The notes under the pieces were generated by a model, which was not told the DNA's origin, made no database searches, and saw only the letters and a list, made by a program, of their open reading frames with translations. This document shows positions 7,579 to 49,866 of a DNA stretch of 64,000 nucleotides, piece by piece. The stretch covers positions 24,948,002 to 25,012,001 of the forward strand of contig OY987242.1 in the NCBI GenBank assembly GCA_963920765.1, given 5' to 3'. Position numbers and translations under genes: made by a program. Source of the DNA: Ulota crispa (Eukaryota > Streptophyta > Bryopsida > Orthotrichales > Orthotrichaceae). The number at the start of each line of letters is the position of its first letter. Within the stretch, counting starts at the first letter, position 1.

Positions 7579-8509
7579 TTAACCCATAAAGGACCATTGT
7601 CCTTTTGTGGGACAAATGGGGTTACGGGCCTGTACGTTTGGATAAGTTATTTTGTATGATTTTTTGAAACTTTTATTAAAAATAAGGAATTTAGAAATCT
7701 ACATGGGCATTTAATATTTTCTTCATTATGACATTCGACAAAGAAGTTATGCAAGAATTTTATCAAAAATAGGGGAGGAGGGGCAGTTTGGGTAGCCCAA
7801 AAAACTTCTTTATAAATTGTACTTTTTAAAAACAAATATTTGGAATTGGTTCTCTAGATTTTTTTATAGGTGGGAAGCTTTGAATCATTCAATTTCAATT
7901 AATGAGATGAAAGTTATGAGGAGATTTTGTTTGCAGTTTAGGGTTGGATTCTCTACTCTAAGATAAACTTTGAAGTCCTTTATTTTACTTGATTTTCAAT
8001 ATTTTGGAAAAAAAATTAAACCAACGAAAAGAGATTGCTTATCACAACATTATGACCGTTGGGATTTTCATTTTTCATTTCAATAATTAAATTCTTAACA
8101 ACTTAGTGTTTTGACTTGTTCTCTACGTTTTACTTACTCTTTTTTTTCTCATGCGTTGTATAGTTCCAATTGATTTGAAAATCCTCCAACATATGTGATA
8201 TGCCTAATTTGATCTCTGACATGGAAAATTTAAAGCACAACTTTGGGTAGAGCAATTTTTTCATGTAAGAGAGGTCAAAAGCTTTTGAAATTTTTTGGTA
8301 GCAAGGGCCCTTCACATCAGATTTAAATATCTCCCTCCTCTCCATCTAGAGTAACCTGATTTTTGTCCCACAAGTACCTATTCTAATATAAGGCAAGAAC
8401 CTATGGTTGGATTTCCAAAAAATAATAATCAATCTTCTTACTCATCCCTAGAAGTGGCAATTTTTAGTGATTTTGGCAAAAAAAAACCCCTTTTTCCTTT
8501 AGGGGTTAA
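7579..8509. mobile_element. TTAA-flanked piggyBac-like MITE, family A copy 1
   Basis: TTAA at 7579-7582 and 8506-8509. The left end reads CCCATAAAGGACCATTGTCC and the right end CTTTAGGGG. Orientation is inverted relative to the copy at 8968-9895 (its left end matches that copy's right end, with ACAAATGGG and GGACAATGG motifs). 931 bp, no ORF of substance. Confidence 0.7.
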
Positions 8510-8967
8510 GCAAGAGTTAGGTCAAGGAGGTGATGCTTTCATCTTTTCAGCACCTATCAATGTGCACAAAACTTTCATAATATTCTGATGACAAAAACAA
8601 TATTTTGGGTGAGAATAATTTGGTTTTCACGGTTTAGGGTTGTACTATTGATTAAAGTTTCAATATTAAATTTTTGTAATTTTCATGGCTACAAGTCTCC
8701 TCCTTTTTTTCCTAACATCTAATTTTTTGAAATTTTATTAAGAGATGAGAAGAAAAAAAAAGGAGGAAAGAGAAAAAATGAGAAAATTTGAAAAAAGTAT
8801 AATGCATGACCAAAGTTTGAAGAAACTAGTCTAAATTCACTTTATATTGTTGTAAGTGACCAATGGATAAAAAATTTGGTTATTAGTCACTAGTCTTGAC
8901 CAAGAGCAATGACCGATAGATAAACATGGACCAACTCTTGGTCACTAGTGTAAAGAGGCCCTAATTA
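8510..8967. other. AT-rich gap, nothing recognised
   Basis: Separates two family-A elements. It contains A-rich and GTCACTAG/CTAGTGAC motifs but no gene or complete element. Confidence 0.4.
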
Positions 8968-9895
8968 TTAACCCCTAAAGGACCAAGGCTTTTTCTCTGT
9001 GAAAAACACTGAAACTGCCACTTTTGGGGGATGAAAGAAATGGTAACTTCTTCTTCTTCTTTTCCAAATCTAACCATAAGATCTTGCTCTAGACAGTATG
9101 AGGTACTTCAGAAAAAAAGAGAAAAAAAAAGCTTATTCCAAATGAAAAGGAGTGAGATACTTACATGTGAAGTGAAGAAAAAAGTTTTTTTTGTACTGCC
9201 CAAAAATTTCAAAAGCCGTTGACCACTCATATATCAAAAAAATTGCTCTACGCAAAGTTGAGGTTTTTTTCCCATGTAGAAGACCAAGTTAGGTATGTGT
9301 GGGAGAGTTTTCAAATCAATTGGAACTATACAACACATGGGAAAAATAGTAAGTAAAAAGAAGTAGAGAATGAGTCAAAACACTAAATTGTTAAGAATTT
9401 AATTATGGAAATGAAAAATGCCAATGCCAATGGTCGTGATGTTGTAATAAACAATCTACATCCTTTGGTTTTGTTTTTTTTCCAAAATAATGAAAATTGA
9501 GTAAAATAAAGGACTTCAAAGTTTATTTTAGAGTAGAGAATCTAGAATTGCCTGCAAACAAAATCTCCTCATAACTTTCATCTCATTTATCAAAATTGAA
9601 TGATTCACAGCTCCCCACGTCTATATAAGTCTAAAGAACCAATTTCAGATTTTTATTTGAAAAACATGAAATTTTTAAGAAGTTTTGGCTGCCCAGGGAG
9701 CAGCATTTTCCAGCTTGTCATGCCTAACTTCTTCAATAATAGTTGGAATGAAGAAAAACTTACATTCCCACGTAGATTTTTTAATTCCTCACCTTCAGTA
9801 AAAGTTTTAGAAAATCATGCAAAGTAGTTTAGCCATGGGTACATGCCCGAAATCCCATTTGTCCCCCGAAGGGACAATGGTCCTTTAGGGGTTAA
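8968..9895. mobile_element. TTAA-flanked piggyBac-like MITE, family A copy 2
   Basis: TTAA (8968-8971) then CCCCTAAAGGACCAAGG; ends TGGTCCTTTAGGGG then TTAA (9892-9895). 928 bp. Its closest relative in the window is 47830-48759, sharing the CTGTGAAAAACAC start and the long conserved block around 9520-9620. Confidence 0.8.
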
Positions 9896-9940
9896 GACAA
9901 CCTAATTGCAGTATTCAGTGTACTGTAGAATACATTTGTA

Positions 9941-10255
9941 AGAGCATCTCCACCGGTTCAAACTTGCTCAAAGTTTTCCATCTGGTTTGGCGAGGCCTGA
10001 AGGCTCTCAATCTCCACTCATGCTCTTTGAAAGGTGGCCTGACATTCCAAAACACCTCATAAATAAGCAGTTGACCACTTATTTAGGGAAGTAGAGGATG
10101 AAACACACTAAAATTAGGATGAATAGTGCATGAATAGTGGTTTGAAGAGTGGCTTGCTAGACTTACCAAATAAGAGAGTTTGAGAGGATCTTGAGAGGGG
10201 CCTAGCTATTTTGCATCCACTTTGAGCGAGCCAGAGTCACCGGTGGAGATGCTCT
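9941..10255. mobile_element. MITE with 17-bp AGAGCATCTCCACCGGT inverted ends
   Basis: The terminal repeats are perfect over 17 bp. The corresponding empty site survives in the right duplication arm at about 19216-19227 (TTTGTAATGTGGTG in reverse complement), which proves insertion after the duplication. No clean target duplication. End sequence of this kind recurs in plant MITEs, but I do not assign a superfamily. Confidence 0.75.
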
Positions 10256-10676
10256 GTGGTGCCGCCGGCGTTTGATGGGTCCTATCCTAGAAGAAGGAAG
10301 GGGGATATCTCACAATCTCAGTGACTAGGCAAAAGTGGAAAAGGCTGACTCAGCATATAACCCTGCAATTACGGAGTCCTTACCTTATCCAACTGGGCTT
10401 CTCTCGGTGTTGAAGGAGTTCATTTTTCATCACAACTCACAAGCACCGAGCTGCCTCGTAGTCACCTGTCCAACAGCTTAGGTGGCCTGTTTTTGCACCA
10501 CTCCGCGAGGGCCAAGTGGGCGTTACATATGCTCTGAGGGAGAATGCGTGATGTGGCACTTATGGGAGTGGGGTCGGAGAGAATACGGATGGGCTCAAGC
10601 CTCAAGGACAGGCTAGGCCATACCAAAAGAAACTGGCGTTTCAAAAGGACGTGTTGTAAAATACAAATGGCGGCAT
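10256..10676. other. Duplication-arm DNA, no gene seen
   Basis: 10256-10400 matches 19080-19215 and 10440-10580 matches 17680-17845, both inverted. It is GC-richer than neighbouring DNA, but no frame is conserved between the arms. Confidence 0.5.
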
Positions 10677-10685
10677 TTACTTCTT

Positions 10686-10977: not shown

Positions 10978-10986
10978 TTACTTCTT

Positions 10987-12848: not shown

Positions 12849-13765
12849 TTAACCCCTAAAGGACCAAGCTGCCTTTTTTTTTGGCAACATAGAAATTTTG
12901 GGTAGGTACCTGTGCTTGGAGGTTTTTATACTTTATATTGAAATTCTAATAGAAGGCGGGGATGAGGAATATCTTTCCTTTGTATTAACTTTCATGATAT
13001 TTGGAATTGTGAGCAAAAAGTTATGGCCTAATATGTTGCTTTTTTTGCTCAACGGGCAACTTGGGCAGGTTTTTAAAACCCACTTTTTTCAGAAACTAAA
13101 ATTTGAAATTGGTTCAAAAAATTTATGCGTATGTGGAAATCTTTGAATCGTTCCATTTGGATTGATGAGATGAAAGTTATGAGGAGTTTTTATTTGTGTG
13201 CAGTTATGGGTTTTCTACTCTAAAATAAACTTTGAAGTCTTTTGTTTTACTCAATTTTTAGTATTTTGAAAATATGTAAGACCAAAGGATGTAAATTATT
13301 ACTTACAACTTTACAACTGTTGGGATTGAATTTTTTTATTTCCAAAACTAAATCATTAAGAATTTAATGTTTTTAATCATTCTATACTTTTTTTACTTCC
13401 TGTTTTTTTCCCATGTGTTGTATAATTCTAAATGATTTGAAACTTTTTTGACATGCACCATACTTGGATGGATTATGGAATCTAGAGAAGCACCACCAAC
13501 ATGGCCTTTTCCCCTTAAGAATTTCACCTTTTAAAGTTAGCTATCCGGTTTTCCACATGACCCAAAAAAACTTTTCAAATCGTTCTATCTTCTAAACCAC
13601 TGGGTGAAACATTTTGATTTTTTTTCCACATCTTCTAAACCTGCACTACAAGATCCTATGGTTAAATATGCATAAAAAGGTTTTTGTTTTCAGATTTGGT
13701 TGATGCTCTAAAAATGACAATTTTGAGAGTTTTTGGTGAAATTGAGCTTGGTCCTTTAGGGGTAA
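12849..13765. mobile_element. TTAA-flanked piggyBac-like MITE, family A copy 3
   Basis: TTAA at 12849-12852 then CCCCTAAAGGACCAAGC; ends TTGGTCCTTTAGGGG with a damaged GTAA at 13762-13765. The interior shares the family block that includes GATGAAAGTTATGAGGAG. Confidence 0.75.
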
Positions 13766-14840
13766 GCACCCTTAGTTGTGAGAAGATTCATAAAGACAAT
13801 GTTAACCACTAAAGGCCTTTGACTAAGTTTCACCAAAAAACATTCAAAATGAGTTGTTTTGGTAGCAAAGGCAAAGAAAAATCAAAAGTGAAATCTTGGT
13901 GTCCTTAAATGTAGATTCTAATAGTAGACTACTTTGTTATGTTGTAGTAATAAGATGAAAGATTTTTCCTGCATAGATTGTGAAATTATAAGGTTTGAAG
14001 TGAGATTTTTTTTGGAGGGCATTCAAATTTTGGGCAGCCCTAATTTGGGGAGGTTTTTGCACCAATTAATCTCATTATTTTAGTGTGATTTTTCAAATTG
14101 GCTTTTGTAATAGAGTTGATTATGTGCCTAAATCTTTTCATAACATTTTGAAATGGGGAACGCATACTAAAAAATAGAATGCAAAACTAGCTTTATAACA
14201 TTTGATGCAAAGCCATATTTTCAACATTTTTTAGCTTCCACATATTGTAGTATTTCAAAATGTGAAAGTTAGAGGTTTAGATTTTAGCTAGCTTCAAAAG
14301 AGGAGGAAAAAAAGTTGGCCAAAATTTGTGGCTTTGACAAGCTTGATCAGCAAAGCGCCTCTTCCAACAAAGGTGAAGTAAAGGGCAGCAAGAAAAAATA
14401 ATTGCCTTTGTGGAATGAGGTTAAGTCAAATTTTACAAGAAAATATTTATGTCCTCAATCTTTGGGTAAGATCCCATAATATCACCTGCAATGTAAATAT
14501 TTTTGCCCATGATGCCTTTTGAGCAAACAAAACTACATATTGCATCATTATTTATTTATTTTTCAAATTGAAATGGTTTGAAAATTGTCTCATTGGAAGC
14601 TATTCCATTGAAAAAATCATCTTCTATTTTTTTTGTGAAAATGTATGTATTATTCTACAAGCACTACCCTGCCCATAATTGCTATGTTGCCAAAAAAACT
14701 CTATTTAGATATTTTGGGATTAAGGCATGTAAAACTGTAGCCTCAACTATTGTATGTGACCATAAAATCACTACATGAAACATTGCATTCATGTTGCCTT
14801 ATTCTGGAGTGTTAACTCATGATTCATTGCTTGGCCATTT
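13766..14840. other. Partial family-A end and AT-rich DNA
   Basis: 13802-13850 starts TTAACCACTAAAGG and continues with the family-A CACCAAAAA motif, so it is the left end of a further copy whose right end I could not place (a weak candidate is at 14419-14422). No gene. Confidence 0.4.
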
Positions 14841-16249: not shown

Positions 16250-17430
16250 TTAACCTCTAAATGTCCAAAGCACCAGAATTTGGTGTTCAAAAAACTTCAA
16301 AAAACTTTGAAACCTTGTTGAAGGCACACATTTTACTGTTTTAAAGTTTTTTTGTGGAAAATTTGCATGCTAAAGTTAGCTTCATTGCTCAAATTTAATT
16401 TCCTCCATGTCTTATTTCAATTGATTTTTGGTGGAAGGTTAACCGCAAGCATACATTTTGTGTCATAAAATGTGTCATGAATAGTATTGTGAATAGTGTC
16501 ACAAAGCCTATAACGTGTTATTTGTTAAATTGGGAAAATTATTACATTTTAGGACTTTTGAAGGTTTCAGGTGGCCACCTGAAATTGAGCTCACAACATT
16601 TTTTTGGTACATGTGCCCTCACTTGAGAGTTGGAATTTGCAAGGGAAAAAATCTTAGTGGCTCAGACTAATTTGATACCTTCAAATCTAGTTTAAGGTGA
16701 CTTTTTGGGTTTAAGGTGGAATACAAAATGGTACCTCTAATTTTCCCAATTTAAAGAATAACGCGTTCTATGAGAAAATGCCACATTGAAAATATGGGCA
16801 TCAAGTTGAGCAAAAGGTGAAGATTTTCTTTGGATAATCCTTTGGGCAATAAGGCCTTTTTATTGAAATTTTGACATCTAACAAACTGATCTAAAAGTGC
16901 TTTTTTACTAGTTTTACTTGGAATATCTTTGTTAGAAAAATTAGAAGTAGTTCACCATTGAATTTTCTTGCATTCATGATAAATTTTGGTCAATAATTGA
17001 AGCTAAAAAAATATTTGTATTAGATGGTTGCGCTTTGACAATTGCATTGCAGGCTCATTTGTGAAGCTGTGGTCATGGATTTGGAAGGTGGGCAATTAGT
17101 TTTGAAGTAACAACAATAAATACTGAAGCATCCTAGGTGGTTGTTTCCCAAGTTTGTATCCAAAAGTTGCCAATTTGCTTTAGAAGTTTTGGGCAGCTCC
17201 AATAAAAGAAAAAAATTCCATACCCATCATCGTTCAATCACAAATATCTTAAAATTTGCGTGGCCATTTTGGGTATATTTTGGGTAGTGCCATCTAGAAG
17301 CCTTGAAGTTCAAGATTCAACGGTTACACTTTTGTTTTGATGTGTAATAATGATCTTACATGGACAATTCAAAAACTTCAAAGCTGCTTTCTCAAAATAA
17401 GAAAAACACCCTTGGACATTTAGGGGTTAA
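16250..17430. mobile_element. TTAA-flanked piggyBac-like element, family B copy 1
   Basis: TTAACCTCTAAATGTCCAAA at the left and the complement of TTAACCCCTAAATGTCCAAG at the right, with intact TTAA on both sides. 1181 bp. It contains a nested 256-bp element (16512-16767). The only related copy is the start at 30086. Confidence 0.75.
16512..16767. mobile_element. Nested AACGCGTT-ended element, copy 1
   Basis: Ends AACGTGTTATTTGTTAAATT and the complement of AACGCGTTATTCTTTAAATT; CTAT occurs on both sides. It aligns, inverted, with 40661-40920 through blocks such as CCCTCACTTGAGAG and GTTTAAGGTG. Superfamily unknown. Confidence 0.6.
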
Positions 17431-19514: not shown

Positions 19515-20427
19515 TTAACCCCTAAAATTCTTTCGTGTTCAGAGGCCCAAAACTGCTTCAAAGTATTAGTCCCCAAACCAGGGTGAAAGTCTTCATTGAA
19601 ACTTATTTTTTTAACAAATTCAATCGTAGGATCTTTTGGATAATTTACACAAGTACATTGTCCCAAAATTTCAGAATGAATATCCCCACCAATTGCAAGA
19701 TCAATGTGCCTAAATTTCAAAATGTAGGTTTTTTTAATCCTTCCAAAAGGTGAAGTCTTGTTTTTCAAACTTTTTAGAAAAAAACACATATGTTGTATTT
19801 CTTGTGCAATTTTTGCAATATGTCGGAAAATGGGTTGAAAGCATATATAAAAAAATTAACCAAAAAAAAACTAGATTCATTTTTACAAAAATTGTAAAGT
19901 GAAAGGTATTGATGAATGAAAGATATAACCAATATGCTAATAAGTTTTGGAAGAATTTGAAAATTGTTAATCCCAATGGTGAGAATGCTCTAACAGACAA
20001 TTAGTAACTTTCATTTTCATTTGAAAATTTTCAAAATTGAGAGTAAAAGATAACTTTATATGTTTTTTCTACCCTCTTGTTACCTTCATTGCCCGCAAAA
20101 GAAAACTCCTTGTAACTCTTACCTCATTATTTGGAATTGAGTGATTCAATTTTTTTTGAGTAGGTATCAATCTATACAATTATATAAAAAAATATTTTAA
20201 AAAATAGAATATATTTTTTGCTGCCCGGTTTGACATTGAAATTGAAAAAACCTTCTAACTTTTGCATTACTTATTGGAATGACATGAAATAAAGCTACAC
20301 ATGTAGATTATGATGGGTAGCATCCATCCTAAAAGTTTCATAAAAAAATTCTAAATTATGAAGTCGATAGAGCCTGCCCAAGTTCTCATAAAGCCCAAAG
20401 TGGGCTCCTTGGTCCTTTAGGGGTTAA
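19515..20427. mobile_element. TTAA-flanked piggyBac-like MITE, family A copy 4
   Basis: TTAA at 19515-19518 and 20424-20427; ends CCCCTAAAATTC and TTGGTCCTTTAGGGG. Removing the element with one TTAA restores a sequence collinear with the left duplication arm near 6950 (ATGTTTAGCTTGTATGTG), so that arm records the uninserted site with TTAG at the target. Confidence 0.8.
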
Positions 20428-21120
20428 ACATCAAAGAAACTCATCAATCTAAGATTGGATACAATTGCTAAGATGATCCCTAACTTTGAGCTCGTACCCC
20501 CTACAAATTGGACGAATAGTTCACATTTCATCCATGTCCTACATGCTTCATCCAATGCAAGTAACCTTCATGACGCCATGGGTATGCAACTTTACGGCAT
20601 TACCTTCAACAACGGAAACGAAAATCTGTGATGATACAATAGTTTCCAAGGGCTTCCCTCCATGCAAGATTGGTAATTGGTTGAAGAGCTACACAACAAG
20701 ACTTTGCTCCATTGCTGCTCATGGAAGTGGCTTTAGCATCATGTATACTTGGTGACCAGGTCATTTTCAAGTTTCAATTTACTTCTTTATTGTTTCTACC
20801 AATCATCAGTGAGGACCCAGTTTTGCTTTTACAAAACCACCCCCTACTCCTCACCCCCACATGAAATGACTCCCTAAAAAACAATAGAACACGGGAACAA
20901 CAGAACATTGTTAAATCCCAAATTGTGGGAAGACGTTTGAATTGCAGCCCACTGAGTGGCACTGTACAAAGCTCCGCACCAACTCCACTACTCCAGTCAC
21001 TAAATCTTTCGCGAACACTATTGGTGGAATGGGAATCACTCCCAAGTGGACCCAAAAGCTCCCAATTCTTTACAGTTTTTTACGTCAAGCACGAGTGTTA
21101 AGACGTCCCATTTGCTCAAG
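20428..21120. other. Duplication-arm DNA upstream of the right J gene
   Basis: Collinear (inverted) with 3073-3240, 5480-5530 and 6698-6920. It carries the empty site for the 5531-6697 element. The 89-residue open frame at 20486 is not conserved in the other arm, so no gene is called. Confidence 0.5.
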
Positions 21121-21385
21121 AAAATCCAAAAAGTAAAAGGTGACCCCACTTGCCTCGAACTAATCCCATTGGCAGATGCCATCCACTTGCCACCTCCATT
21201 TTTAGAGCCCACCCTTTCAAACTCCCCCAAAGTGCCACACACACCCCACCCCCTACAGTTCTGGAAGCTCCAGCCACAGGATCAGCACCAAACCGTCCGC
21301 CTCACGAACGCCGTCAGTACCTTCCCAGAGCGGCACGAGCCCATTATCGTCAAACATCGACGAGAATACAACCTTCCTCGTCGCG

Positions 21386-21487
21386 ACACGTGGTTTCTCG
21401 TCCATCCGCTGCCGGTGCTGGACGATAACCGGACGCGCTTCCAACGTTCTGCGGCTTCGGCCCCTCCGCTTCTGCGGGACTATATAT
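21386..21487 (+). promoter_or_regulatory. J-gene core promoter, right copy: G-box and TATA box
   Basis: An ACACGTGG G-box/ABRE-like element lies at 21386-21393 and a TATATAT box at 21481-21487, inside a locally GC-rich block. The TATA box is 228 bp before the ATG, implying a leader of roughly 200 nt. G-boxes bind bZIP/bHLH factors in light, ABA or stress responses; stress control would suit a co-chaperone but is inferred. Confidence 0.6.
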
Positions 21488-21714
21488 CCCGCTTGCCATT
21501 CCGTTTCCACTCATCCGATTTCTTCGTCAAGAGCTTCTCTCAGACCAGAGTGCGTTTTCAAAGCTTGTCTGCAGTGAAATTTGAGCCTCGATCGAGCGTG
21601 GAAGTTGAATCAAGGCCAAATTGGAGTTGCGAATCCAGATCGGAACTCGAAAGACATTGTGAGCTGTAGCAGGCTTTAGCTATTTGAGAGGATTTGATTC
21701 GAAGGTTGTGAGCG

Positions 21715-22317
21715 ATGGCGAGCACTGCGTTGAGAGTGAATGTTGTGGGAGTATCGGCTGCTCATCCATTTTCGAGCGAGGGATCGCTGAGGTCGCCTGG
21801 TAGTCCGGTGTCTTGCCCGGGCTCTCCGTCGCAGTTTTTCGGACAGAAGCTGGCTGCGGTGTGCTCTCCGCGCGAATTGAAGTCGGCGGTTGCTGACACA
21901 AGCGCGCGGGCGTATGCTGGAACAGAGATTGGTGCGAGGGTTGGCGCGACGACGAAGAACTTGTACGACGTGTTAGGCATCAACCAACGGGCGACTCCGA
22001 GGGAAATCAAAGCGGCTTACAGGATGGCGGCTCTGCGGTTGCACCCGGACGTGGTTCCGGAAGAGCAAAGATTGGAAGCGACGAAGTCGTTCTTGGAAGT
22101 GCAAGAGACGTACTCGATTCTGGCGAATGCTGAGACGCGAGCGGCGTATGATCTGTCGATGTCGATGAGGTCGTTCCAGTCTGCGGGATTCAGCAACAGA
22201 GGGCCGGTGTCGTACGGCACTCCTGCGTGGGGGTTCACATCTTCTCCAGTCTCGAGCTCGTACAACAGCAGCTTTTCGTTTAAGGGACAGAATTGGGAGA
22301 CGGATCAGTGCTGGTAG
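21715..22317 (+). CDS. Plastid-type J-domain (DnaJ 11/20-like) protein, right copy
   Basis: Same 200-residue protein as the copy at 1876-2478, in opposite orientation: a transit-peptide-like N-terminus (about 80 residues), J-domain with HPD at 110-112, and terminal WETDQCW. Paired coordinates of the two copies sum to 24193 throughout, so there is no net indel between them across CDS, about 590 bp of promoter and 5' leader, and about 370 bp of 3' DNA. Codon third positions are GC-rich, unlike the AT-rich surroundings, consistent with an expressed gene. Either copy could supply the same co-chaperone; nothing in the sequence says which is transcribed more. The antisense open frames of 178 and 82 residues over this gene are shadows. 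Confidence 0.9.
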   Translation: MASTALRVNVVGVSAAHPFSSEGSLRSPGSPVSCPGSPSQFFGQKLAAVCSPRELKSAVADTSARAYAGTEIGARVGATTKNLYDVLGINQRATPREIKAAYRMAALRLHPDVVPEEQRLEATKSFLEVQETYSILANAETRAAYDLSMSMRSFQSAGFSNRGPVSYGTPAWGFTSSPVSSSYNSSFSFKGQNWETDQCW

Positions 22318-22688
22318 AGATGGTGAGGTGGTGGTGTTGTGTAGGGTTTGGAAAGGATGCACATCATTCCCTCGATGTGAGTCTTTGTACAGAATTATGG
22401 AGGGTCCGCGGACAGGGCGGCTGTGCGTGTTGTAAGAGCTGAAAGAGTAGCCTGCTTCAGCACAGATGTACAACAGCAGAAGTAGGGTAGAGCAAGAGAT
22501 TGTATTCATGCAGTGAAATTGAAGAGAATGGAATCCAAATTTTTATCTGAAATTTTCGCCAAAAATGGAGCTGAGTTGTTATGGTATGGAAAATCTTTGT
22601 CAGTCTCTCTTGTGTGGCAGTGAACGATTCAGATTTGTGGGGGGCTTTGCTTTTGGCAACTGCATGCATGGCGCAGAAAATGGAAGGA

Positions 22689-24166
22689 TTTAAAAAGTGG
22701 TAATCGTGGTGTGGTATGACATGTATCTTGGCGGCAATCTAGAGTGGTATTCAGACTCTTGAGTTGTTGTAAGTGGTTATTTGCTTTGTGAAGCATTAAG
22801 AATGAAATGTGCAAAGCGGCACTGGAGTAGTGAATGTGTGAACAGTAAGTGCTCAGCTGAATCCGTGAAATACGTGGTGCTAAAGTGGTAGGTAGATGAA
22901 AGGAACTGTTCATATCTGCATCATCTTGAAAGCCTCCCTTGAATTCACATACTTAGTGAAATCGTTGATATGGAGAATTTGTGTGAAAAGGGATAGTTGG
23001 ATTGTTCAGTTCGTTTTGAAATATGGTAAGTGTGCCTAAATCCGACCATGTACCTTATGGCGTCTTATGGCGTCTGTATGTATACAAGGTGGTCGCTTTA
23101 CAACTCAAATCTAGGTTTGCCGTAGACAGCTTATTTTTTGTGACTCGCGTTGAGCAAAGACTCGGCCTTCATATTGAGTCTCAATTCTTGCATTTTGCAT
23201 ACATGGGAGCACTTTTTGGAGGTTTTGGTACCGTGAAGGTGGAATTTTGTACAAATATTGGGTCAATCATTTTGTCAGACCCAACTTTTAGCTCAAGTCC
23301 CACTAATATTTTGCATTCATGACTATATGTAGCATTCTCCCTTGCCTATAGTAGTTGAGCAAGACTAGGATCTTATGTTGAGGTGATGGAAAATGTAATA
23401 GGGTATATTTGTATGGTTGTGTCTATCAATAGGGGTAGTCATGGTTGAGTTTTTGCATTCTCAATCTTCACGGAAAACTAACTTGCCGCTTTGTCCATGA
23501 CTAGCACAAGGCCAATTCCGTGAGGATTGAGAAAAATAATTCTTGTCCCCCTAGCGTGAAGAAATGGCTTGAGAATATTTTTTGTGTGAGAACTCTTACC
23601 ATGGTCTACCTATTTACCCGCTTGTGAATTGTTTTCCACCCATGCTTTTTCTACTCCTCCAATCAATGGCTGTGTTGCCTTCCTCTAAGTAAAACAATCT
23701 CCGTTCTTCATTCTTCAGATTCCATCACCCTCAAATGGGGTATCACACCTCCTTCTATGAAGAAGTGCTTCTATTGGCTCCTACATTCACTCAACCATTT
23801 CTTAATCTCCACGGAAATCTCAATCTTAGACCAACCTCAACTACCCCTAATGCTCCAACTAGCACTTTGTGAGAGCTAACACAAAATAACTCTTTCTAAG
23901 TTTGATTGTGGATGAAAAATAATGAATTCTGTACATGTGTATGTGTTCCTTACTATTTAGAGTACTGTACAATCTTAGTTGTTGTGATTCTTAATTTTTT
24001 TCTTTTTAATCTCATTTTGTCTATTGAATCCCTTTCTAAAAAGCTATTTATTGAATTGGAAAAGTTGATTCTGATATGAATACTTGTAAGTTTTGAATTG
24101 TAGAATATATGTAGGAAATGTTTTGGACATTTATTCAATGAAGTTTATAGAAACTAATACAAGGAC
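22689..24166. other. Diverged J-gene 3' flank, then sequence without a recognised gene
   Basis: 22689-23020 is the diverged outer flank of the duplication. At 23080-23140 a TACAAGGTGGTCGCTTT block resembles 33040-33060 in the family-D element. 23140-24166 shows no element ends or gene. Confidence 0.45.
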
Positions 24167-25093
24167 TTAACCCCTACAGGATCATGGCCTTTATTTTGTC
24201 AAAAGACACTCAAAATTGCCACCTCTATGGCAAAGAGTAAAAAAGTTTGAAAATTAGGCATTTTGCATATCTGACCATAGGATCTTGTGCTAGACTATTA
24301 TAAGAATGTGTCATACAAAACTCAAGAATTTTGACTGCACATATTGGAAGATATTTGCATTTAAAAAGTGAAAAACAACTTTTTTTGCACCTTGCTTGAC
24401 TAGATTTTTTAACTTTGAAACTTTTTAACTTAAAATTTTTGCACCACAGAGTTTGGAATTCTATTTTTGCGTGGTGGGAAGTTGAGTTGGGAATCTTGGG
24501 AAAAAATTTCAAAAAGAATACTTAATTTTCATTCTTTAAAAAAACATTAGGTAGAAGAACGTATGAGATTGAAGAAAAACTTAAATTGCTAATAACCCTG
24601 CAATGGAATTGAAACGCAATAGTCCCAATGGTGAGATTGTTCTAGAAAGCAAACTTCACCCTCTCCAACAATTTTTTTTGAAAAAATGTTAAATCCGCAT
24701 TCAAAAAAGAAGTTTATAAGTTATTTTTTCAAGAAGTTGCTTGAGTTGCCCAAAAAACAAGATTGTCCATAACTTTCTCATAACTAGTCCAAATGGACTA
24801 ATTCAAAGCTTCAGAAGTAGATAAAGATATAATCTATGAGAAAAAAAAATTAAATTTTTTTAAGGTTTTTATAAGAATTTTTTTTGCTGCCCCTAGTCCC
24901 CAAATTTGTGCTTATTTGGGCATAACTTTTGCTCCTTGGCATCAATTGGAATAAAAATTAGATTCTCCAAAAGCTAATGTGTTTTTCTATTTTCAAAAGA
25001 AGTTTTAAAAAATTAGGACAAAAATTAAGGCTGTAAGTACCTGCCCAAAATCCCATTTATCCCTCGAAGGGACAATGGTCCTTTAGGGGTTAA
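24167..25093. mobile_element. TTAA-flanked piggyBac-like MITE, family A copy 5
   Basis: TTAA at both ends (24167-24170, 25090-25093); CCCCTACAGGATCATGG at the left and GGACAATGGTCCTTTAGGGG at the right. 927 bp, non-coding. Confidence 0.78.
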
Positions 25094-25293: not shown

Positions 25294-25622
25294 TTAACCC
25301 CTAAATGTCAGTGCGGACAAAAAACGTCCGTTGCCTCCGAAAGAAGTTTAAATTGATTTTGATCTGAGTGATCACAAATGCGTAGTGTACCATGGAAGGC
25401 AAAAATGAAATTCATCAAATACACTCATAATTTTAGGTACCCCAAGTTCAGAATCACTCACTTAGGTCTCAAGCTGCCCTTATTGTAATTTTCATGGAAT
25501 CAATATGTACTGTTGCCTTTTGCAACTTTTTGAGGCAATATTATTGGTGCATAGCTACAAAAATACTGTAGAAGCCAAAGTCAGGGCAAGCCACGGTGAC
25601 CCACCCGACGCTTAAGGATTAA
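25294..25622. mobile_element. TTAA-flanked piggyBac-like MITE, family C copy 2
   Basis: TTAACCCCTAAATGTCAGTG at the left; the right reads CCCGACGCTTAAGGATTAA. TTAA is intact on both sides. An internal GGACAAAAAACGTCC palindrome sits 15 bp from the left end. 329 bp. Confidence 0.65.
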
Positions 25623-25654: not shown

Positions 25655-26066
25655 TTAACCCATTAATGTCTGTGGTCGATTTTGAGGTGAGCAATCCTTT
25701 GTATGGCCATTTGGGGCAAAATTTAAAATTATTGTATATAGATTTCTACCACAAATCTAATCGTACAAATGGAAGTATCTTGTAGGGTTTAGTGTTATGC
25801 ATCATGAATTATGCTCACTCTTTAGTTGTTATGGCCATCTTTTTGCATTTATTGGTGTATTTTCAGCGGGTATTCTTTTAGTCTTTGCAACCCTTTAGCC
25901 ACATGCCACCTCAAATTGGCTTGATTATTGTCCTAAACTCTTCACTTTCCAATTCCTCATATCCTTCCCCTTTGCCACGTCAACAAATTCCTTAACATGC
26001 TCTCTCTACAAACTAAAAAGAGTCAAAATCGACCCAGAAATGGTTGACTAGATGTTAATGGGTTAA
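25655..26066. mobile_element. TTAA-flanked piggyBac-like MITE, family C copy 3
   Basis: TTAACCCATTAATGTCTGTG at the left and the complement of TTAACCCATTAACATCTAGT at the right, with the subterminal motif GGTCGATTTTGA on both arms. TTAA is intact on both sides. Only 32 bp separates it from the preceding element. Confidence 0.75.
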
Positions 26067-30706: not shown

Positions 30707-30714
30707 ACAGATTC

Positions 30715-31635
30715 CTAACCCCTAAAGGACCAAGCTCAATTTTCACCAAAAACTCTCAAAAATTGCCATTTTTAGAGCATCAACCAAATCTGAAAACAAA
30801 AACGTTTTTATGCATATGTAACCATAGGATCTAGTAGTGCAATAGTTTTAAAAAATGTGGTAAAGAATTTAGATTTTTTCACCTAGTTGATTGGAAGATA
30901 GAGCGATTTGAAAAGATTTTTTGGTCATGTGGAAAACTAGGCAGCTACCTTCAAAAGGTGAAATTCCTAAGGGGAAAAGGCCATGTTGGCAGCGCTTCTC
31001 TAGATTCCATATTCTGCCTAAATAGGATGCATGTCAAAAAAGTTTCAAATCATTTAGAATTGTAAAACAAATGGGAAAAAATAGGAAGTAAAGAGAAGTA
31101 GAGAATGATCAAAAACATTAAATTGTTGATAATTTAGTTATGGAAATAAAAATAATCAATCCCAACGGTGATGATGTTGTAAGTAACAATTTACATCCTT
31201 TAATCTTACACATTTACAAAAATGTTGAAAATTGAATAAAATAAGAGACTTCAAAGTTTATTTTAAAGTGGAGAATTCATAACTACCCGTAAACAAAAAC
31301 TCCTCATAATTTTCATCTCATCAATTCAAATGGAATGATTGGAAGGTTTCCACACACACATAAATAGCTTGAACCAATTTCAAATTTTAGTTTTTGAAAA
31401 AAATGATTTTTAAAGAACTACCCAAGTTGCCCGTTGAGCAATAAAAAACAACATATTAGGCCATAACTATTTGCTTGCAATTCTAAATGTCATGAAAATT
31501 AGTGCAAATGAAAGATATTCCTCGTCCCCACCTTCTTTAAGATTTCAATTTGAAGTATGAAAATCTCCAATCATAGGTACCTGCCCGAAATTTCTATGTT
31601 GCCAAAAAAAGGCAGCTTGGTCCTTTACAAGTTAA
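30715..31635. mobile_element. TTAA-type piggyBac-like MITE, family A copy 6
   Basis: CTAA then CCCCTAAAGGACCAAGCTC; ends TTGGTCCTTTACAAG then TTAA. It belongs with 48945-49866 by its opening (TTTTCACCAAAAACTCT, then ATTTTTAGAGCATCAACCAA). 921 bp. Confidence 0.72.
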
Positions 31636-32032: not shown

Positions 32033-32040
32033 TTTTTCAA

Positions 32041-39913: not shown

Positions 39914-39916
39914 AAT

Positions 39917-40660: not shown

Positions 40661-40920
40661 TGTCATATTTGTTAAATTGGGAAAACACAATTCCCAAATT
40701 GAACTTCACCTTAAACTCAAAAAGTTACCTTAAACTAGATTCAAAGGTATTAGATTCAATCTGAGCCACTAAGATTTTTTCCATCGCAAATTCCTCCTCT
40801 CAAGTGAGGGCACGTGTACCAAAAAAACGTTGCTTAAACCTTGAGTTGGGTTTAAGGTGATCACCTTACATGCAAAAGTCCCAAATTTGAACATAGTTCC
40901 CAAATTAACAAATATGGCGT
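40661..40920. mobile_element. Second copy of the nested 16512-type element
   Basis: Ends pair through CATATTTGTTAAATTGGG and AACGCCATATTTGTTAATTT. It aligns inverted to 16512-16767 along its length, including CCCTCACTTGAGAG and the CTTAAACTAGATT(C/T) block. Confidence 0.6.
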
Positions 40921-43359
40921 TAAGTGGAGTTTGCCAAACTCCATACTAATCCATAAATTATTATTTTTTGCATTTCATTTTTGCTCATTATTGTACATAT
41001 TTAGGTTTTTTAAAATTCTTGAAATCTTTTTTCCAAAATTGTTATTCTCAAACATTTGTTATGTGTATTTTGTAATATCAATTATCATTACTATGTTTAT
41101 TTCAATATGTACATGGTCCAAAAACATACTTTTAGGTCTTTGTAACTTATAATTTTTACACCCATCAAATTATTTATATAGATTGCATGGAATGTGTTAA
41201 TATAAAAAATAAAAAATGTAAAAAAAGAACCTTATTTGTAAGTGATAATGAAGTTTATAAATCATAAATGAAGCACATTACACTCTAATAAACAAAAAAA
41301 TGCAAAACAAGCAAGACATTCTAATAACACATGCAACATTTTATACATTTTTTCTAGTTTTTATTAGAAGAAAATAGTCAAATTTTCAATTATTTCATTA
41401 ATTTCAAATGCTTTTAACTCAAATCTATTATAATTCCCAAAATCTCATGTGTTCTTTCCATGGACAATAAAGAGTGTGGTATAAGATCCATTGATCTCAC
41501 TTTTAGATAAAACTTTTTGAAACGCCTTTGCATAAGTGAACAACTTATGAGCTTTTTAGAAATTTATTCTTAATAAGTCCTTGAATTGCAAAATATTTCA
41601 TTTATTCTCTATTTTTGAATGGGCTTCTTAAAAAATGTGATAAATTACAAGAATAGATTAGATTTGAAAATATATTTTATGAAATTTGTAGGTTACATCT
41701 CTAAGTTTGGATTTGTATATGCAAATGTAAACGTTTACAATCAGATGCGCTTTATAAACCCTTAAAAGAAATCCAAAATGTTTTCAAATTATTTTGGACA
41801 AGTTGTGCAGCATTTCTAATAACATGCATGACAAGGTGGTGTGATTAATATAATTTTATAAAATTTATTTGCAAAAAACCATGTTTGAGAGTTGCCTTTT
41901 CTAAAGTATTTATAAAATATGTCACAAACTAATGTGGTTCATTTTTAAATAGTTTCAATAAGTTTTTTCACATTATTTTCAATAACAAATATATAGAAAT
42001 TATAGTGAAATTGTCTAGGAAGCTATCATAGAAAATAAATAACAAAATAATTCAATATGAATGAAAAAATGCAATTCAAGTTCATCCATTATGTACATAT
42101 TGGAAGATGCATTTGACAAGGTTGAATACAATTTTATTCTAATATTATGCAAATTTAAAAAATATATAACATAATTGTGCTTTTTTTTTTTTTTAATAAT
42201 TCATAATTCAAAATGTACATAAAGAATGATTAGATATTTTTAATCAATTTCTTTCTTCCGTTTCTTCTAACTTTTTAAGTACATAGATTAAATATAAGAT
42301 ACATTCTATTTGAGAAACAAAATCATCAATTTAATATGCTATAATATTTTGTATGTTTTGTTCACGGAAATGTAGAAATAATTGAATGTGATTACATGTG
42401 TTACATAAGTTTCTAAAACAACACCAACTCAATAGGAATCATGTCTTTGATTATCATCGCCACCTCCTTCACTTTGGACACTAGCATTGCTATTGTCATG
42501 AGAAAAAACTTCATAATTTCTTTCATAGTAAACCCTCCTTCTGTCATTGAAAATAATTGTGCTAGAAATCATAGTTGGTTGTGGGTATTGGATTTAGATT
42601 TTAAGAAGGAGAGGAAAACTAGTAAGATATGGTAAGAAAATTCTAGAAATACTTTTGTTCCTCTCCATATTTCAAATCTTTTGACATTTTTTTTTTTTGT
42701 AGTAGCAGCTTACATAAATACAACAAATTATTCTTTGAGTTTCAAATTAACATCACTAAGTTTTTGCAGCACATCAAAAAACAAAAAACCCAAATTTGAT
42801 GCAACATAATTTTATGCTAAAATCAATAGAAGAGGTTACAATAAAGTAGGAATACACAAGAACTTGAGATTTTTTTGTTGAGGTCAACTTATAAACAAAG
42901 AAATAGTATTTTTGGTATTTTATTATATAAAAGTTATATACATACAATTAATATAGTGTTTTTAAGAGTTCGTTAGTTTTTTTAGCATGCAAAATGTAAT
43001 TATCACATTTTTGAAGACCTTGAAGAGATTTTTTTTTATTACTTAGTACATGGATTCAAATGAATGATTTTCTATTGTAAAACATAATTTTATAACATAA
43101 TTTGAATCTATGAAATTAGCGCAACATTAAAGTTGTGAGACAGTATACAAATATAAATGGGACATACACTATAAACATCAATTTTTATCTCCATGAAACC
43201 TAAAATAATTTTCTTTAATTGTTTCTCTTTTATTCTTTTTGTAAGCATTCTTGTATTCTAATGTGTGGATATAAGCCTCTAAAGTTTTATTATAAACAAT
43301 TCTATTGAGGTTTTCTATTCTAACCTCTCAATTTGAATCATATCTATCTTTTAGCAAAA
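40921..43359. other. Very AT-rich stretch, no gene seen
   Basis: Long A and T runs (for example 42180-42196), no conserved frame. Part may belong to the Harbinger element that follows. Confidence 0.4.
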
Positions 43360-44098
43360 TGTTGCAATTGTGTAAAACAACACAATTCCAAATCTAGAGT
43401 ATAGTAAGGGTTTGTATTTTTTTTCTAGAAATAAATGTAGGCATTCCTCAAAGGCTTTGGAACTTGCCATTTAATTGTCCAATAGTATGTTCTAATTTCA
43501 CACAAATAGAAGAAAGATGTTTGTTGAAATGACGGTTGTCTTCTTTATTGGAAGCATACTGCTTGTAAGTTGTAAGGTGGTAGAGTAATAGGAGGAAGAG
43601 GGTACCTAGTATTTGTTAATATTTATTCTAGAGCTTTATAGTAATTGGTATGTTGAAGCCATACTTACAAGTTCACAAAACATAAATATTATATGCAAAT
43701 CCAAGGAAGCCAACATATATGGAAATGTGTTATTTTGAAATTTTAGTTGTTTATAATCATACAAGAAATAGAGTAGCAACTATGTTGTTGAAATACTGCT
43801 TGCCTTGGCAGCTTGATTCTGTAGCAAGTATGACATGGGTACCATCCATAATGCCAATAACATTAAAAAAAACTATGGAATTCCTTAATAGAAGATTTAC
43901 TGGCTTCTTTTTGCGTATGGTTGGGCCAACATACCACGCTTTTTTAATTGTCAATACAGCAATCATAATATGTTTAGTGAATTTTGATATCACACTTGTA
44001 GAAATATGAAATGTTGTTGCCACATTCAACTGAAAAGCCTTGTTTCCATAGGCTTCAAATCTAAATAAAACAATAAAACACAACAATAGCGGATTCAA
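43360..44098 (-). pseudogene. PIF/Harbinger transposase (DDE_4-type) pseudogene
   Basis: The minus strand first gives a 113-residue frame (44098-43757). It contains the helix-turn-helix-like FRFEAYGNKAFQLNVATTFH and then IGIMDGTHV, the first catalytic Asp motif of Harbinger transposases. Beyond a stop the reading continues in decayed form: YVGFLGFAYN fits the GxPGSxHD region, EHTIGQLNGKFQSL fits VExxxGxLKxRF, and CVVLHNC fits the terminal ciiLHN. Several stops and the loss of the middle acidic region make it inactive. It could be the relic of the source of the TWA-flanked MITEs here. Flanking terminal repeats were not found. Confidence 0.7.
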
Positions 44099-45789
44099 AT
44101 GAGAAACAATGCTATCATTTGTGCAAATATTGTGGTTTTTTAATCATATTTCATATTCTCTCAAATGCTGTTGGGAGCTTGCCAACTTGGGGTCAACCTA
44201 AATCTTGCTTGGAATCAAGTGGGGTTCATACAAAAGTATGTCACTTGCCATACATGATGAATTGGACTTTTTAGGATGTCTTTTAAAAAAGCACCTGTGT
44301 GATAAAATACCCTTGTAAAATAAAGAGACATTGTTTGGGAAAAATTCATCACTACTATCAAAAGCAAAGGAATTTTTGTTTCCTTTAGAAAAATCAGTAA
44401 GTAAAACTATCATCTTCATAAACATAGAGTATATGTGCTGCAAGATGATTTCAAATTCTTCTATGAAATTAGCTCACTTGCTTTTTTGAGGCATGTTTGT
44501 AAAATAATGATACATAACATTCAGTAGCAGTCAGCCCTCCCTCCAACTGAAGAGTGTGGAATATTTCACACTTTTTCATCTAGCCGGATGAAAGAGTGTG
44601 GAATGTTCCACACCCATCAATAGCTAAGAGGACACTTGGCTAAATTTGTCAAAGAGTTTATGAAAGAGAGGCTCAGTTTAATGCACATACGTCGATGTGG
44701 GGGCCACCTATGTCAAAAAATTTAATTTAATTTAATTTTTTTTTGTCATGATGAAGTTTGTGGATGATACCTGAAGAGAGGAAAAGGCAGCCTCTCTTCA
44801 AGCTATTGAATGTTATGTAAGAAGAAAAATTAAAAGCGAAACAAAATTTGGATTTTATATACATGGAAAACAAAACTTGTAATGTTGTAGAATGAATAGA
44901 AATACTTTTGACGCAAATTTATATTTTTATTCTTAAATTTATATTTGACTTTAAAAAAAAAAAAACTAAAGTATTATATCTTTTGCTTTATGAAGATATA
45001 TTTCTCATATTTTATAAAATTTTGTTTTTATTTTCATATGGAACATAGCTAGAACGTGGTTTTTTTTTTTAAATCTTTCAAATAATTAATTAATTCCATC
45101 AATTCTTTTGATCTTGTTAAGGAAAGTAGTTTCCTTAAGGAACTCTTGGGGCTTTCAATAGGCTTATGTGACTTCAACTTTTGACATAACTTTTTTCAAC
45201 CATTTTGAAGATAGGAAATGGCATTAGCTTTTGCATATGTAATTTGTATTTACACTAGTGCTTGAGAGCAAAAGCTATGTTACTTTAAATTCAAAAAACA
45301 ATTTTAGGAGCAATCTAGTAAAACCCAAAAATTTTGATTTTGCAAATTAGATTTTTTTTCAAAGACTATATTTTTGCATATATGTAAAATTTTGATTAAA
45401 TTAATTTACGTTTATGATAGGAATATTATGAATTTTGTTTTTTGGGCAGTTTGAGCTTCTTCTCAAAAAAAAATGTAAGACTCTCTTATAAACTCTATTC
45501 TTACAAAATTTCAAAAATAAATGTGGATTATGATTGAGTTTGTTTGCTTGAAATATCTCATTGCCAAGGTTAGTGTATTCCAATTCCATCTTACATCTAT
45601 GAACAATTTGGGTTTTTATTGAATTTGGGCAATACGTTTACTTTGTATTTTTCTCAAAGCACAAAATGTAGTATTTTTTCTTGGAGATTTTCTTGGTAAA
45701 TTTTGTAATCAATTCTTATGTGTATGAATTTTAAAATTAAAAAGCAATATTACAAAAATTTGAAGTGAAAAAGGTTTAAAACCAGTATA
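44099..45789. other. AT-rich DNA upstream of the Harbinger relic, no gene seen
   Basis: The minus-strand frame at 44198-44443 could be part of the same element's second protein or N-terminus, but shows no motif. 44540-44610 repeats GAGTGTGGAAT(A/G)TT twice. Confidence 0.35.
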
Positions 45790-45798
45790 TATAATTAA

Positions 45799-46301: not shown

Positions 46302-46310
46302 TATAATTAA

Positions 46311-47441
46311 ACACAAGGTGCCAAAATGCTTGCGTCCTTCACTTTCAATGCAAATATCTTGCAATGAACCCAGCCAAAGTGTCCAAGAAAAATTTCACAC
46401 CAATTCCCATATAATTTGATGTGCAAGAAATCCCATTCAAAAAGTGTTTGCTACATCCCATGGAAATGGCAATTGTGAGTGTTGTTTGATAACCAAGGTC
46501 TTGGCACTATAGAGGTTAATTTCTGTAAATATTTACTTTTATTCAGATAAAGAACGCTCGATATTACATAAAGCATTATGTTGAATTACTAAAGAAAGCG
46601 GTACATGTAACTAAATTATATTTCTAAAAAATACGTGAAATAATTAGATGGAATTTTTTCAATTTGCAAAAAAAAATTGAAATTATCTTCGAAAGTGGCA
46701 AGGACGTGTATTAATTATTTTTCTTGTTGTCATGTTTCAGTTATGTAATGATTTATAAGAAATAAGCAAATTTTTATTTTTATGTATCAATAATGTAATG
46801 TTGCCAAAATTGAATTAGCAAAAAAGGACCAAGATGTTTGGTGAAAATTATTTAAAATTAAAAGAATTTAGAAGAGAGATGTGGCTGATCCTGCCAATCA
46901 TGTGTTTTTCTAACTTTTACAAGAATAAGTATTTAGACTTGGAATAAGAATGAAATCAAATACATCCAAAGTATGCAAAGATGGACAATTCAAGGTTTTC
47001 ATTTGGAAAAGACTCTTCTATTAATACTTCAAATTTAAGTTTACTGAATGTTAAACATTTATATGCACAATATCTTTGAAATTAATGCGCGTTGCTAGAA
47101 ATGGCATGAAGGAGCTCTTGCAATTGAAAGAGATGACTTTCATAAAAAAATGTAGTTGAAACCTTCATGATTTGACCATTTTAAATTGGAAGATGAATGC
47201 TTGTGAGTATAGGAAATATATAATGTACATGCAATATTGGAGTATATTGTAAATTTCTAACTTTAGATACTATTGAAAAATATCAATTTGCATGAAAATT
47301 AAAGTGTTGGTATGATATGATATATACATCATGTTTCATAACTAGTGCTTAAAATTCATTGGGAAACTGTCTTTCTAAGTTACATTTTATAATATGTGCT
47401 CATCATATTTGGAATTTGAACTACCATTGATTCTATAGGGA
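46311..47441. other. AT-rich DNA, no gene seen
   Basis: A weak TTAA-like pair near 46306 and 46518 was considered and not accepted. Nothing else recognised. Confidence 0.4.
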
Positions 47442-47675
47442 TTAACCCTTAAACATCTGAGCGTGCTACTCCAACCAATACAATATGGGATATTTTTCTT
47501 GTATTTTGAATGGATCCACACCTCTACTACATTTGAGACCAACAAAGAAGTTGGAGAATAGATCAATGCGGTTCTAGTGAGCTACTTGAGATCTCAAATT
47601 AAATTTTTTTATTGATAGCAAATGACAATTATATGTTAGCGCATATACTATGCCCTATGGACGTTTGAGGGTTAA
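47442..47675. mobile_element. TTAA-flanked piggyBac-like MITE, family C copy 4
   Basis: TTAACCCTTAAACATCTGAG and the complement of TTAACCCTCAAACGTCCATA, with TTAA intact on both sides. 234 bp, the smallest of the group. Confidence 0.7.
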
Positions 47676-47829
47676 TGTTGACATTGAAAATCATGTGAAA
47701 GCAATCCAACCCATTAAGTTGATTGTCATTATTTAACAATCATAAATTACTAAGGCATTTTTTAATCATGATCCATGCAAAAATATCATTTTAGCTATGC
47801 CTATCCAAGAAAAAAACAAAAATAAGTTC

Positions 47830-48759
47830 TTCACCCCTAAAGGACCAAGCCATTTTTTCTGTGAAAAACACATAAAATTGCCACTTTTGGGAAGCAAGTA
47901 CATTGGTCAGAAAAAAAAAAATTTACAAAAATTCAATCATAAGATCTTACAGTAGACTACAAGAGGTACACGTGGTAAAAAAATTCAGCTCAATCTACAC
48001 AAAAATGAGTGAGATATTTACATCTGAATTGCGGAAAAAGTATTTTTTTTCCTACTGCTCAGAAATTTCAGAAGGCTTTGACCACTCTTAGATGAAAAAA
48101 ATTACTCTACACAAAGTTGTGGTTTATTTTTCCCATGTAGGAGACCAAGTTAGGCATATGTGGGAGAATTTTCAAATCAATTGGACCTATACAACACATG
48201 GAAAAAATAGTAAGTAAAAAGAAGTAGAGAATGAGTCAAAACACTAAATTGTTAAGGATTTAATTATAAAAATGAAAAATGCAAATCCTAATGGTTATAA
48301 TGTTGTGATAAACAATCTACATCCTACAGTTTTGTTTATTTTTCCAAAATATTGAAAATTGAGTAAAATAAAGGACTTCAAAGTTTATTTTAGAGTAGAG
48401 AATCTAGAATTGCCCGCAAACAAAAACTCTTCATAACTTTTATCTCATCTATCAAAATTGAATGATTCAAAGCTCCCCACGTCTATATAATTCTAAAGAA
48501 CCTATTTCAGATTTTTATTTGAAAAAAACGTAAATTTTGAAGAAGTTTTTGGCTATCCAGGGAGCAGCTTTTTCCAGATTTTCATGCATAACTTCTTCAA
48601 TAAATGTCAAAATGAAGAAAATTTTACATTCCCACGTAGATCTTTGAATTCCTCACCTTCAATAAAAGTTTCAGAAAATCATGCAAAGTAGTTTAGCCAT
48701 AGGTACATGCCTGAAATCCCAATTATCCCTTGAGGGGACAATGGTCCTTTAGGGGTTAA
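47830..48759. mobile_element. TTAA-type piggyBac-like MITE, family A copy 7
   Basis: TTCA (mutated target) then CCCCTAAAGGACCAAGCC; ends GGACAATGGTCCTTTAGGGG then TTAA. Closely related to 8968-9895 along its length. Confidence 0.78.
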
Positions 48760-48944
48760 CATACAACCATAAGATTGAGTACTTCACTTGTCTCATAGCA
48801 TTTGCTAAAAATTTCATGAAGTACCATATAGAGCGGAAGATACTAGTATTCAAAGTAGGTAGCTTTTTTGTTTTTAGCTACAGTTTCTGGAAAAGTTTGC
48901 ATCATGGACTTTGAATTAATAAAAAAGCTATGTTGAAAATTTGC

Positions 48945-49866
48945 TTAACCCCTAAAGGATCAAGCAAAGTTTTCACCAAAAACTCTTCAAAACTGCCATT
49001 TTTAGAGCATCAACCAAATTTGAAAACAAATACATTTTTATGCATATGTGATAGTAGAATCTTGTAGAAGAGTGGTTTTAGAAGATGTGGAAAAAATTAC
49101 AGAGTTTTTCACCACGTGGATTGGAAGTTATATGGTTTGAATATTCAAAAACATCTTGTGAAAAATCGGGCAGCTACCCTTCAAAAGGTGAAATTCCTAA
49201 GGAAAAAAGGCCATGTGGGTGGTGCTTCTCTAAATTCCTTATTCCACCTAAGTAAAGCACATGTCAAAAAAGTTTCAAATCATTTGGAATTGTATAATAT
49301 ATGGAAAAAAATTAGTAAGTAAAAACAAGTAGAGAATTATTCAAAACACAAAATTGTTAAGAGTTTAATTATGAAAATGAAAAATGCCAATCCCAATGGT
49401 CATAATGTTACAGTAAACAATCTACATCCTTTGGTTTTGTTTTTTTTTCCAAAATGTTGAAAATTGAGTAAAATAAAGCACTTCAAAATTTATTTTGGAG
49501 TATAGAATACATAACTGCCTGCAAACAAAAAATCCTCATAACTTTCATCTCGTTGATCAAAATGGAATGATCAAAAGCTTCCTACATTCACATAAATCTC
49601 CTAAACCAATTTAAAATTTTTCTTTTTGAAAAAAGCAATTTTTAAAAATCTACCTAGGTTGCCCCTCGAACATAAAAAGCAACATATTAGGCCATAACTT
49701 TTTACTCATAATTCCAAATGTCATGAAATTTAGTGCATATGAAAGATAAACCTTGTTCCCACATTCTATTAAAATTTCAAACTAAAATATGAAAAGCTCC
49801 AATCATAGGTACTTGCCCAAAATCACTATGTTTCTAAAAAAGGGAGCCTAGTCCTTTAGGGGTTAA
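48945..49866. mobile_element. TTAA-flanked piggyBac-like MITE, family A copy 8
   Basis: TTAA (48945-48948) then CCCCTAAAGGATCAAGC; ends TAGTCCTTTAGGGG then TTAA (49863-49866). Same subfamily as 30715-31635. Lies 185 bp from copy 7 in the same orientation. Confidence 0.8.

Follow-up and report, generated by a model that had tools for sequence, protein, structure and literature searches.

In a 64,000-nucleotide stretch of the Ulota crispa (Bryopsida) genome (contig OY987242.1, positions 24,948,002 to 25,012,001; hereafter the window, with positions counted from its first letter), twelve short TTAA-flanked elements are, with near certainty, miniature inverted-repeat transposable elements (MITEs) of the piggyBac superfamily, the subfamily termed A1 among them being an internal deletion derivative of a piggyBac element of 7-8.5 kb with a transposase gene that introns probably interrupt. 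The elements were very probably moved by piggyBac-type transposases. Their piggyBac-like character, proposed in a preliminary description made from the letters of the window, is supported by the duplication of TTAA at the target site, by the end sequences, and by A1 parents that carry sequence of the piggyBac transposase domain PF13843 (DDE_Tnp_1_7).

Transposase-bearing parents of subfamily A1

The genome searched comprises 274.8 Mb, ten of its contigs being 15.8-41.4 Mb long, and the transposase search covered the piggyBac family only. PF13843 (528 first-look candidates, 116 scored) gave at least 120 genome matches with a best E value of 1.3e-73; none of the matches listed falls in the window, in agreement with the earlier statement that no transposase lies there. 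A protein search with a stretch of the transposase on contig C9 gave at least 151 matches, from 63% identity downwards, and the DNA downstream of the C9 locus and of its 12 best other matches (55-63%) was taken, these 13 loci being termed clade A. The right end of 12 of the 13 matches A1 positions 1 to ~356 at 72-87% identity, and the thirteenth locus (L063) matches A1 over 58 bp only; in all 13 the right end lies ~1.6-2.0 kb from the transposase domain. An A1-type end was found in none of eight loci outside clade A, two of which were read over 1.5 kb with their own ends included. Three further loci, L002, L005 and L008, read over 1.5 kb downstream only, were kept outside this control and gave no match there. 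The control elements at C3:13132787 and C2:15048720 have ~5.0-5.1 kb between TTAACCC ends of other sequence, and each begins 2,525 bp before the transposase domain. Of the transposase loci read first, 11 in number, eight were taken with 1.5-kb flanks and three as stretches of 7.9 kb; four showed a TTAACCC right end, and no clear left end was seen in any of the 11.

The genome search proposed in the preliminary description, for long elements that combine these ends with a piggyBac transposase, succeeded for A1. The parent at C9:12440860-12449389 (8,530 bp, TTAA on both sides) carries the right end of A1 on its left side and the left end of A1 on its right side, and is without the MITE core. A second parent, from C3:27054300 to ~27062803 (8.5 kb), has TCAA as its left target site; its identity to the A1 consensus is 88% on the left (206 bp) and 93.5% on the right (355 bp), the latter being the best match of any parent. 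The third, at C1:661173-668351 (7,179 bp, TTAA on both sides), matches A1 at 92% over 189 bp on the left and at 76% over 356 bp on the right, and has exact 18-bp inverted ends, TTAA included. Left ends were read in these three parents (7.2-8.5 kb), and all match the opposite MITE end at 84-92%. Homology to the MITE breaks off at position 354-368 in the 12 long-match loci, while most of these parents stay similar to the C9 parent farther inward, across ~450-715 bp of the right end; one founding internal deletion would leave this pattern. The preliminary description had considered that full-length relatives might encode a different transposase; this did not occur, the parents carrying PF13843 sequence. 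A foldback at C3:13128829-13129554 (L042) was also seen, in which the A1 right end is doubled head to head over 726 bp with 96% self-complementarity and the start TTAACCCC.

A 365-aa transposase piece (L040) matches the piggyBat chain 9c0f (E 2.5e-20) and chain 6x67 (E 7.2e-19), which we take to be T. ni piggyBac. The motifs VDE, DN[FY] and GVDxxDQ around three aspartates are recognisable in many translations and not intact in each, the assignment of catalytic residues following the available text of PMC7351741. A motif of the CxxC...CxxC type stands after the domain in 11 of 16 loci of a three-frame scan, perhaps by chance in at least one of them, C5_17378513; these 16 include L004 and L007, which were read on the wrong strand and are left out of every other count. 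The coding sequence is damaged in the transposase copies read. Pairwise identity between the lineages read is mostly ~30-55%, and therefore several old lineages coexist; no relative of the transposase was confirmed in viral contigs with one protein as query. Introns probably divide the gene, as suggested by split domain matches in the sequence (for example C3:27055862-27056725 and 27056972-27057238) and by acidic frames upstream in two parents, judged by eye to be similar.

Ends, target sites and families of the window elements

The CCC...GGG ends reported earlier were recovered as a short terminal inverted repeat, with CCCCTAAAGGACC or close variants at both ends; TTAACCCCTAAAGGACC is the end sequence of these elements, and the 13-mer CCCCTAAAGGACC is exact at 9 of the 16 family A ends in the window. 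Genome-wide, the 14-mer end CCCCTAAAGGACCA has 8,876 exact occurrences (4405+4471), and the TTAA-preceded end TTAACCCCTAAAGGACCA has 7,555 (3781+3774), against none for its reversed control (0+0). Thus 85.1% of ends (7,555/8,876) directly follow TTAA, where we estimate ~1% from base composition alone, and the suspected TTAA bias at insertion sites is borne out. The element ends in the window are not due to chance; a loose end motif occurs 29 times there, against a mean of 10.8 and a maximum of 17 in 20 Markov resamples. Neighbouring pairs 900-965 bp apart, taken from the first 100 sites listed, face inward in 12 cases and outward in none. Scaling the 8,876 ends by 9/16 would give, as a rough figure, ~8,000 elements and ~7 Mb, or 2.5-3% of the genome. 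Subfamily A1 is short, non-coding, present in high copy number and has ends in common with its parent, and is a MITE family on these grounds.

Thirty-seven copies were read in detail, namely the eight in the window and L010-L038, the latter picked because they resemble one copy in the window, which is itself L009. TTAA stands on both sides of 24 of the 37 and on at least one side of 32. L022 has CTAG on both sides, and therefore the four bases come from the duplication and not from the element. Within the DNA retrieved, a paralogous match spans the junction for 12 of the 37 insertions. In the gap-free empty sites of L012, L019, L023 and L029 there is one TTAA, against two at the filled site, and several other spanning matches hold one related tetramer, such as CTAA or TTCA. 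The target duplication is 4 bp, not 2 or 3, because the empty sites hold a single TTAA where the filled sites hold two; the 3-bp duplication of TTA or TAA envisaged beforehand as the contrary outcome was not seen.

The count of twelve TTAA-flanked elements given in the preliminary description holds, with TTAA on both sides of nine and one decayed side in three, those starting at 12849, 30716 and 47830; five of the eight family A copies, the family B copy and three small elements have TTAA on both sides. Its division into three families stands for A (eight copies) and B (one copy). The proposed family C does not stand, as its members have the end motif alone in common, and BLASTN among the element at 47442, the element at 25655 and positions 25294-25600 found no match of one to another. 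These small elements, all on the forward strand, are 329 bp (25294-25622), 412 bp (25655-26066) and 234 bp (47442-47675) long.

The eight family A copies, 913-931 bp long, are alignable end to end with a mean column identity of 71%, A1 being only ~53-65% identical to A2, A3 and A4. A1 and A2 have a common core of ~375 bp at 74-84%, and BLASTN joins their flanks only close to the tips. A1 is represented by an old reverse-strand copy at 7579-8509, 22% from the A1 consensus, by a forward copy at 8968-9895, 11% from it (both with TTAA on both sides), and by the forward copy at 47830-48759, the query for the genome search, whose left target site is TTCA. A2 copies lie at 12849-13766 (reverse strand, right target site decayed), at 30716-31635 (forward, left target site CTAA at 30715-30718) and at 48945-49866 (forward, TTAA on both sides). 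The divergent A3 (24167-25093) and A4 (19515-20427) are both forward and have TTAA on both sides, and A4 has a paralogous empty site at window positions 6769-7022.

The TTAA-flanked family B element (16250-17430, forward strand) is 1181 bp long because a 256-bp sequence is nested inside it at 16512-16767, without which it measures ~925 bp; its two halves abut in most of 40 genome copies scored. The insert, to which no strand or class is assigned, has the ends AACGTGTTATT...AATAACGCGTT. It resembles 40666-40922, a further small element family. As to a possible distant homology of B to A, the best global identity between them is 0.512, marginally above the maximum of 0.467 from five shuffles. 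The window lengths of A1-A4 and of B cluster at 913-931 bp, though BLASTN joins B to A at little beyond the ends. Among the twelve elements, stop-to-stop frames of at least 110 aa occur only in A4 (123 aa) and at the right end of B (115 aa), and the latter frame has no Pfam match.

Other features of the window include an inverted pair at 57789-58956 and 61017-62184 (1168 bp at 99.8% identity), which seems to have arisen by inverted duplication very recently, and a second inverted pair at 1175-3085 and 21108-23018 (94.9% identity) with the same reading frame in each copy, where the frame 1876-2478 of the first copy has a DnaJ domain. A near-perfect palindrome at 6110-6632 consists of two 259-bp arms, 98% complementary, with a 5-bp spacer. 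A 128-aa frame at 43757-44143 appears by eye to be PIF/Harbinger transposase-like and has no Pfam match at E 0.01.

Decay, origin and alternative explanations

An active source, raised as a prospect in the preliminary description, is not supported by what was sampled, given that no intact transposase was found and that the best of 40 A1 copies scored, out of 9,658 candidates, reaches 95% identity to the consensus and no more. A1 copies lie 4.4-7.7% from the consensus when the two older window copies are left out. The closest other copy among 40 scored is 91% identical to the window A2 copy, and the closest to the window B copy is 87% identical over part of it. C-to-T change relative to the A1 consensus affects 25% of CG, 18% of CHG and 5.5% of CHH sites, and such decay concentrated in CG and CHG is the pattern expected of plant-type methylation. 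The earlier assignment to a plant genome fits this pattern and a plastid contig of 112.5 kb, in which tRNA-Arg(CCG) lies between rbcL (PF00016) and an accD-like frame named by eye; this arrangement is typical of bryophytes and not unique to them. Taken alone, the sequence indicates a land plant, probably of bryophyte kind.

The transposases are likewise eroded. Ten of the at least 120 PF13843 matches listed are stop-free, each of them covering less than the full domain; the protein search with the C9 query gave further stop-free stretches of at most 199 residues, some of them outside the PF13843 matches listed. In three stop-free rows the open frame exceeds 370 aa, and all three look damaged. 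At C4:3591922 asparagine stands in place of the third aspartate; at C8:19570986 the second motif is altered and there is an insertion; and C2:34594948 keeps the three aspartates and the cysteine motif, has its N-terminal part in another frame, and shows no TTAACCC ends in the 7.9 kb around it. A 563-aa row at C1:1180709 consists of two domain pieces with stops between them in a single-frame reading. The piggyBac system thus looks largely decayed, and an intact transposase may remain in intron-split genes or in unlisted copies.

A1 was very probably founded by an internal deletion within a 7-8.5-kb piggyBac parent, the MITE retaining ~177-206 bp of the left end and ~356 bp of the right end, with a core of ~370 bp between them that is not traced to the parent. 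The CCCCTAAAGGACC ends, common to parent and MITE, would be bound by the DDD transposase of the parent, which would then excise either element and insert it at TTAA with duplication of 4 bp. We infer that a clade-A transposase moved the MITEs, presumably by this cut-and-paste chemistry, and similar parents may be supposed for the other subfamilies.

Several points weigh against this account. The evidence is drawn from sequence, transposition itself not having been observed, and no intact transposase was found among the matches listed and read. The 12 parents taken are the 12 best matches to one transposase, and at one of the clade-A loci, L062, an intact TTAACCC end is lacking. The choice of the 7,179-bp parent was made from coordinates, on the ground that a clade-A transposase match lies there between two exact inward-facing ends. 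In none of the transposase elements read was the MITE core (~positions 370-730) found, strong core matches being MITE fragments outside transposase elements. For A2, A3, A4, B and the small elements no parents were found, and at most short ends link these groups to the transposase elements read. Divergence or gaps obscure the junction in several of the 12 spanning matches. At L034:1504-2427, an A1 copy within an A2-like MITE is bordered by an 8-bp repeat, GTTTCTAA, without TTAA; this is an aberrant insertion. The 14 control genomes without a PF13843 match are a weak control, the five named ones being prokaryotes.

Duplication of TTAA is also a property of Kolobok and Sola3 and so is not by itself specific to piggyBac, which leaves room for MITEs derived from one of these superfamilies in a genome whose piggyBac genes are unrelated to them. 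This origin, to which the lack of parents for A2, A3, A4, B and the small elements lends some weight, is nevertheless very unlikely, given that 12 of 13 clade-A piggyBac loci end in the terminal ~356 bp of the MITE and that in three parents PF13843-type sequence is enclosed by both MITE ends, correctly ordered and oriented. For A1 it is rejected, as the parents carry PF13843. The shared ends could instead be halves of MITE copies into which transposases had inserted, and nested insertions do occur here, as in the family B insert and the targets of L029 and L034. Such an origin is highly improbable: neither side of the elements read contains the MITE core, the homology stops at position 354-368 in 12 loci while most of these parents remain like the C9 parent further in, and the distance from right end to transposase domain is ~1.6-2.0 kb in all 13 loci.

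Membership in PIF/Harbinger or in a Stowaway-like group, where a 3-bp (TTA/TAA) or 2-bp (TA) duplication would mimic TTAA, has a negligible probability. TTA and TAA are contained in TTAA, and these are standard superfamilies of plant MITEs, as far as the available text of PMC12550479 goes. The 3-bp model fails, however, because it makes the fourth base part of the element, a base that could then not vanish from the empty site, whereas gap-free empty sites have one TTAA and filled sites two, and L022 duplicates the four bases CTAG. The 3-bp TWA duplication of PIF/Harbinger is accordingly ruled out by the empty sites.

Beyond descent of A1 from a piggyBac parent, a broader reading is put forward tentatively and is, taken as a whole, rather doubtful. 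Bryophyte-type plants would harbour an old and diverse piggyBac community, in which several deep transposase lineages may exist as large split-gene elements with MITE families of their own. The MITE core may be a module passed by recombination between subfamilies with different ends, and one ~0.92-kb MITE scaffold may have been used by successive transposase lineages. The little-decayed C2:34594948 may have been active late or may be a domesticated gene.

Relation to known systems

The piggyBac transposon is a workhorse of animal genome engineering and has been described mostly from animals. A literature search, with most subscription journals outside its coverage, found no description of piggyBac MITEs in a land plant among the titles and abstract openings listed. 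The available main text of a 2025 MITE survey of 207 plant genomes mentions neither TTAA nor piggyBac (PMC12550479). Against novelty, a plant review, in its available part, counts PiggyBac among the superfamilies recognised in plants, citing general classification (PMC10794571); a fern genome repeat table, likewise from a partial text, has 1,230 PiggyBac entries covering 122 kb (PMC6890710); and the accessible portions of two further papers make the general statement that plants contain piggyBac (PMC10140906, PMC10813416). With thousands of piggyBac-type MITEs, and with both parents and offspring preserved, this genome shows that piggyBac has contributed substantially to building the genome of one land plant at least. 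Surveys of plant MITEs without a TTAA class may miss piggyBac MITEs, and the genome offers a natural setting in which to study the silencing of piggyBac by plant DNA methylation.

The elements resemble the piggyBac superfamily, as known from T. ni piggyBac and bat piggyBat, in the PF13843 domain with three-aspartate motifs, the TTAA duplication, the CCC...GGG ends with a short inverted repeat, and the cysteine-rich C-terminus. They differ from it in a gene that is probably split, in a land-plant host, and in the coexistence of lineages ~30-55% identical. Complete bee piggyBac elements are 2.23-3.52 kb long in the available text of PMC10140906, whereas the parents here are 7.2-8.5 kb. As in the plant MITE superfamilies Mutator, hAT, PIF/Harbinger, Tc1/Mariner, CACTA and Micron, the MITEs are high-copy non-autonomous DNA elements. 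Like the piggyBac-like MITEs of corals (PMC2872659) and Lepidoptera (PMC9033116), as far as these are described in the portions available, they are short and non-coding, with piggyBac-type ends and TTAA; unlike them, as those portions have it, they occupy a plant host, have parents with common ends in the same genome, and in families A and B lie near 0.92 kb.

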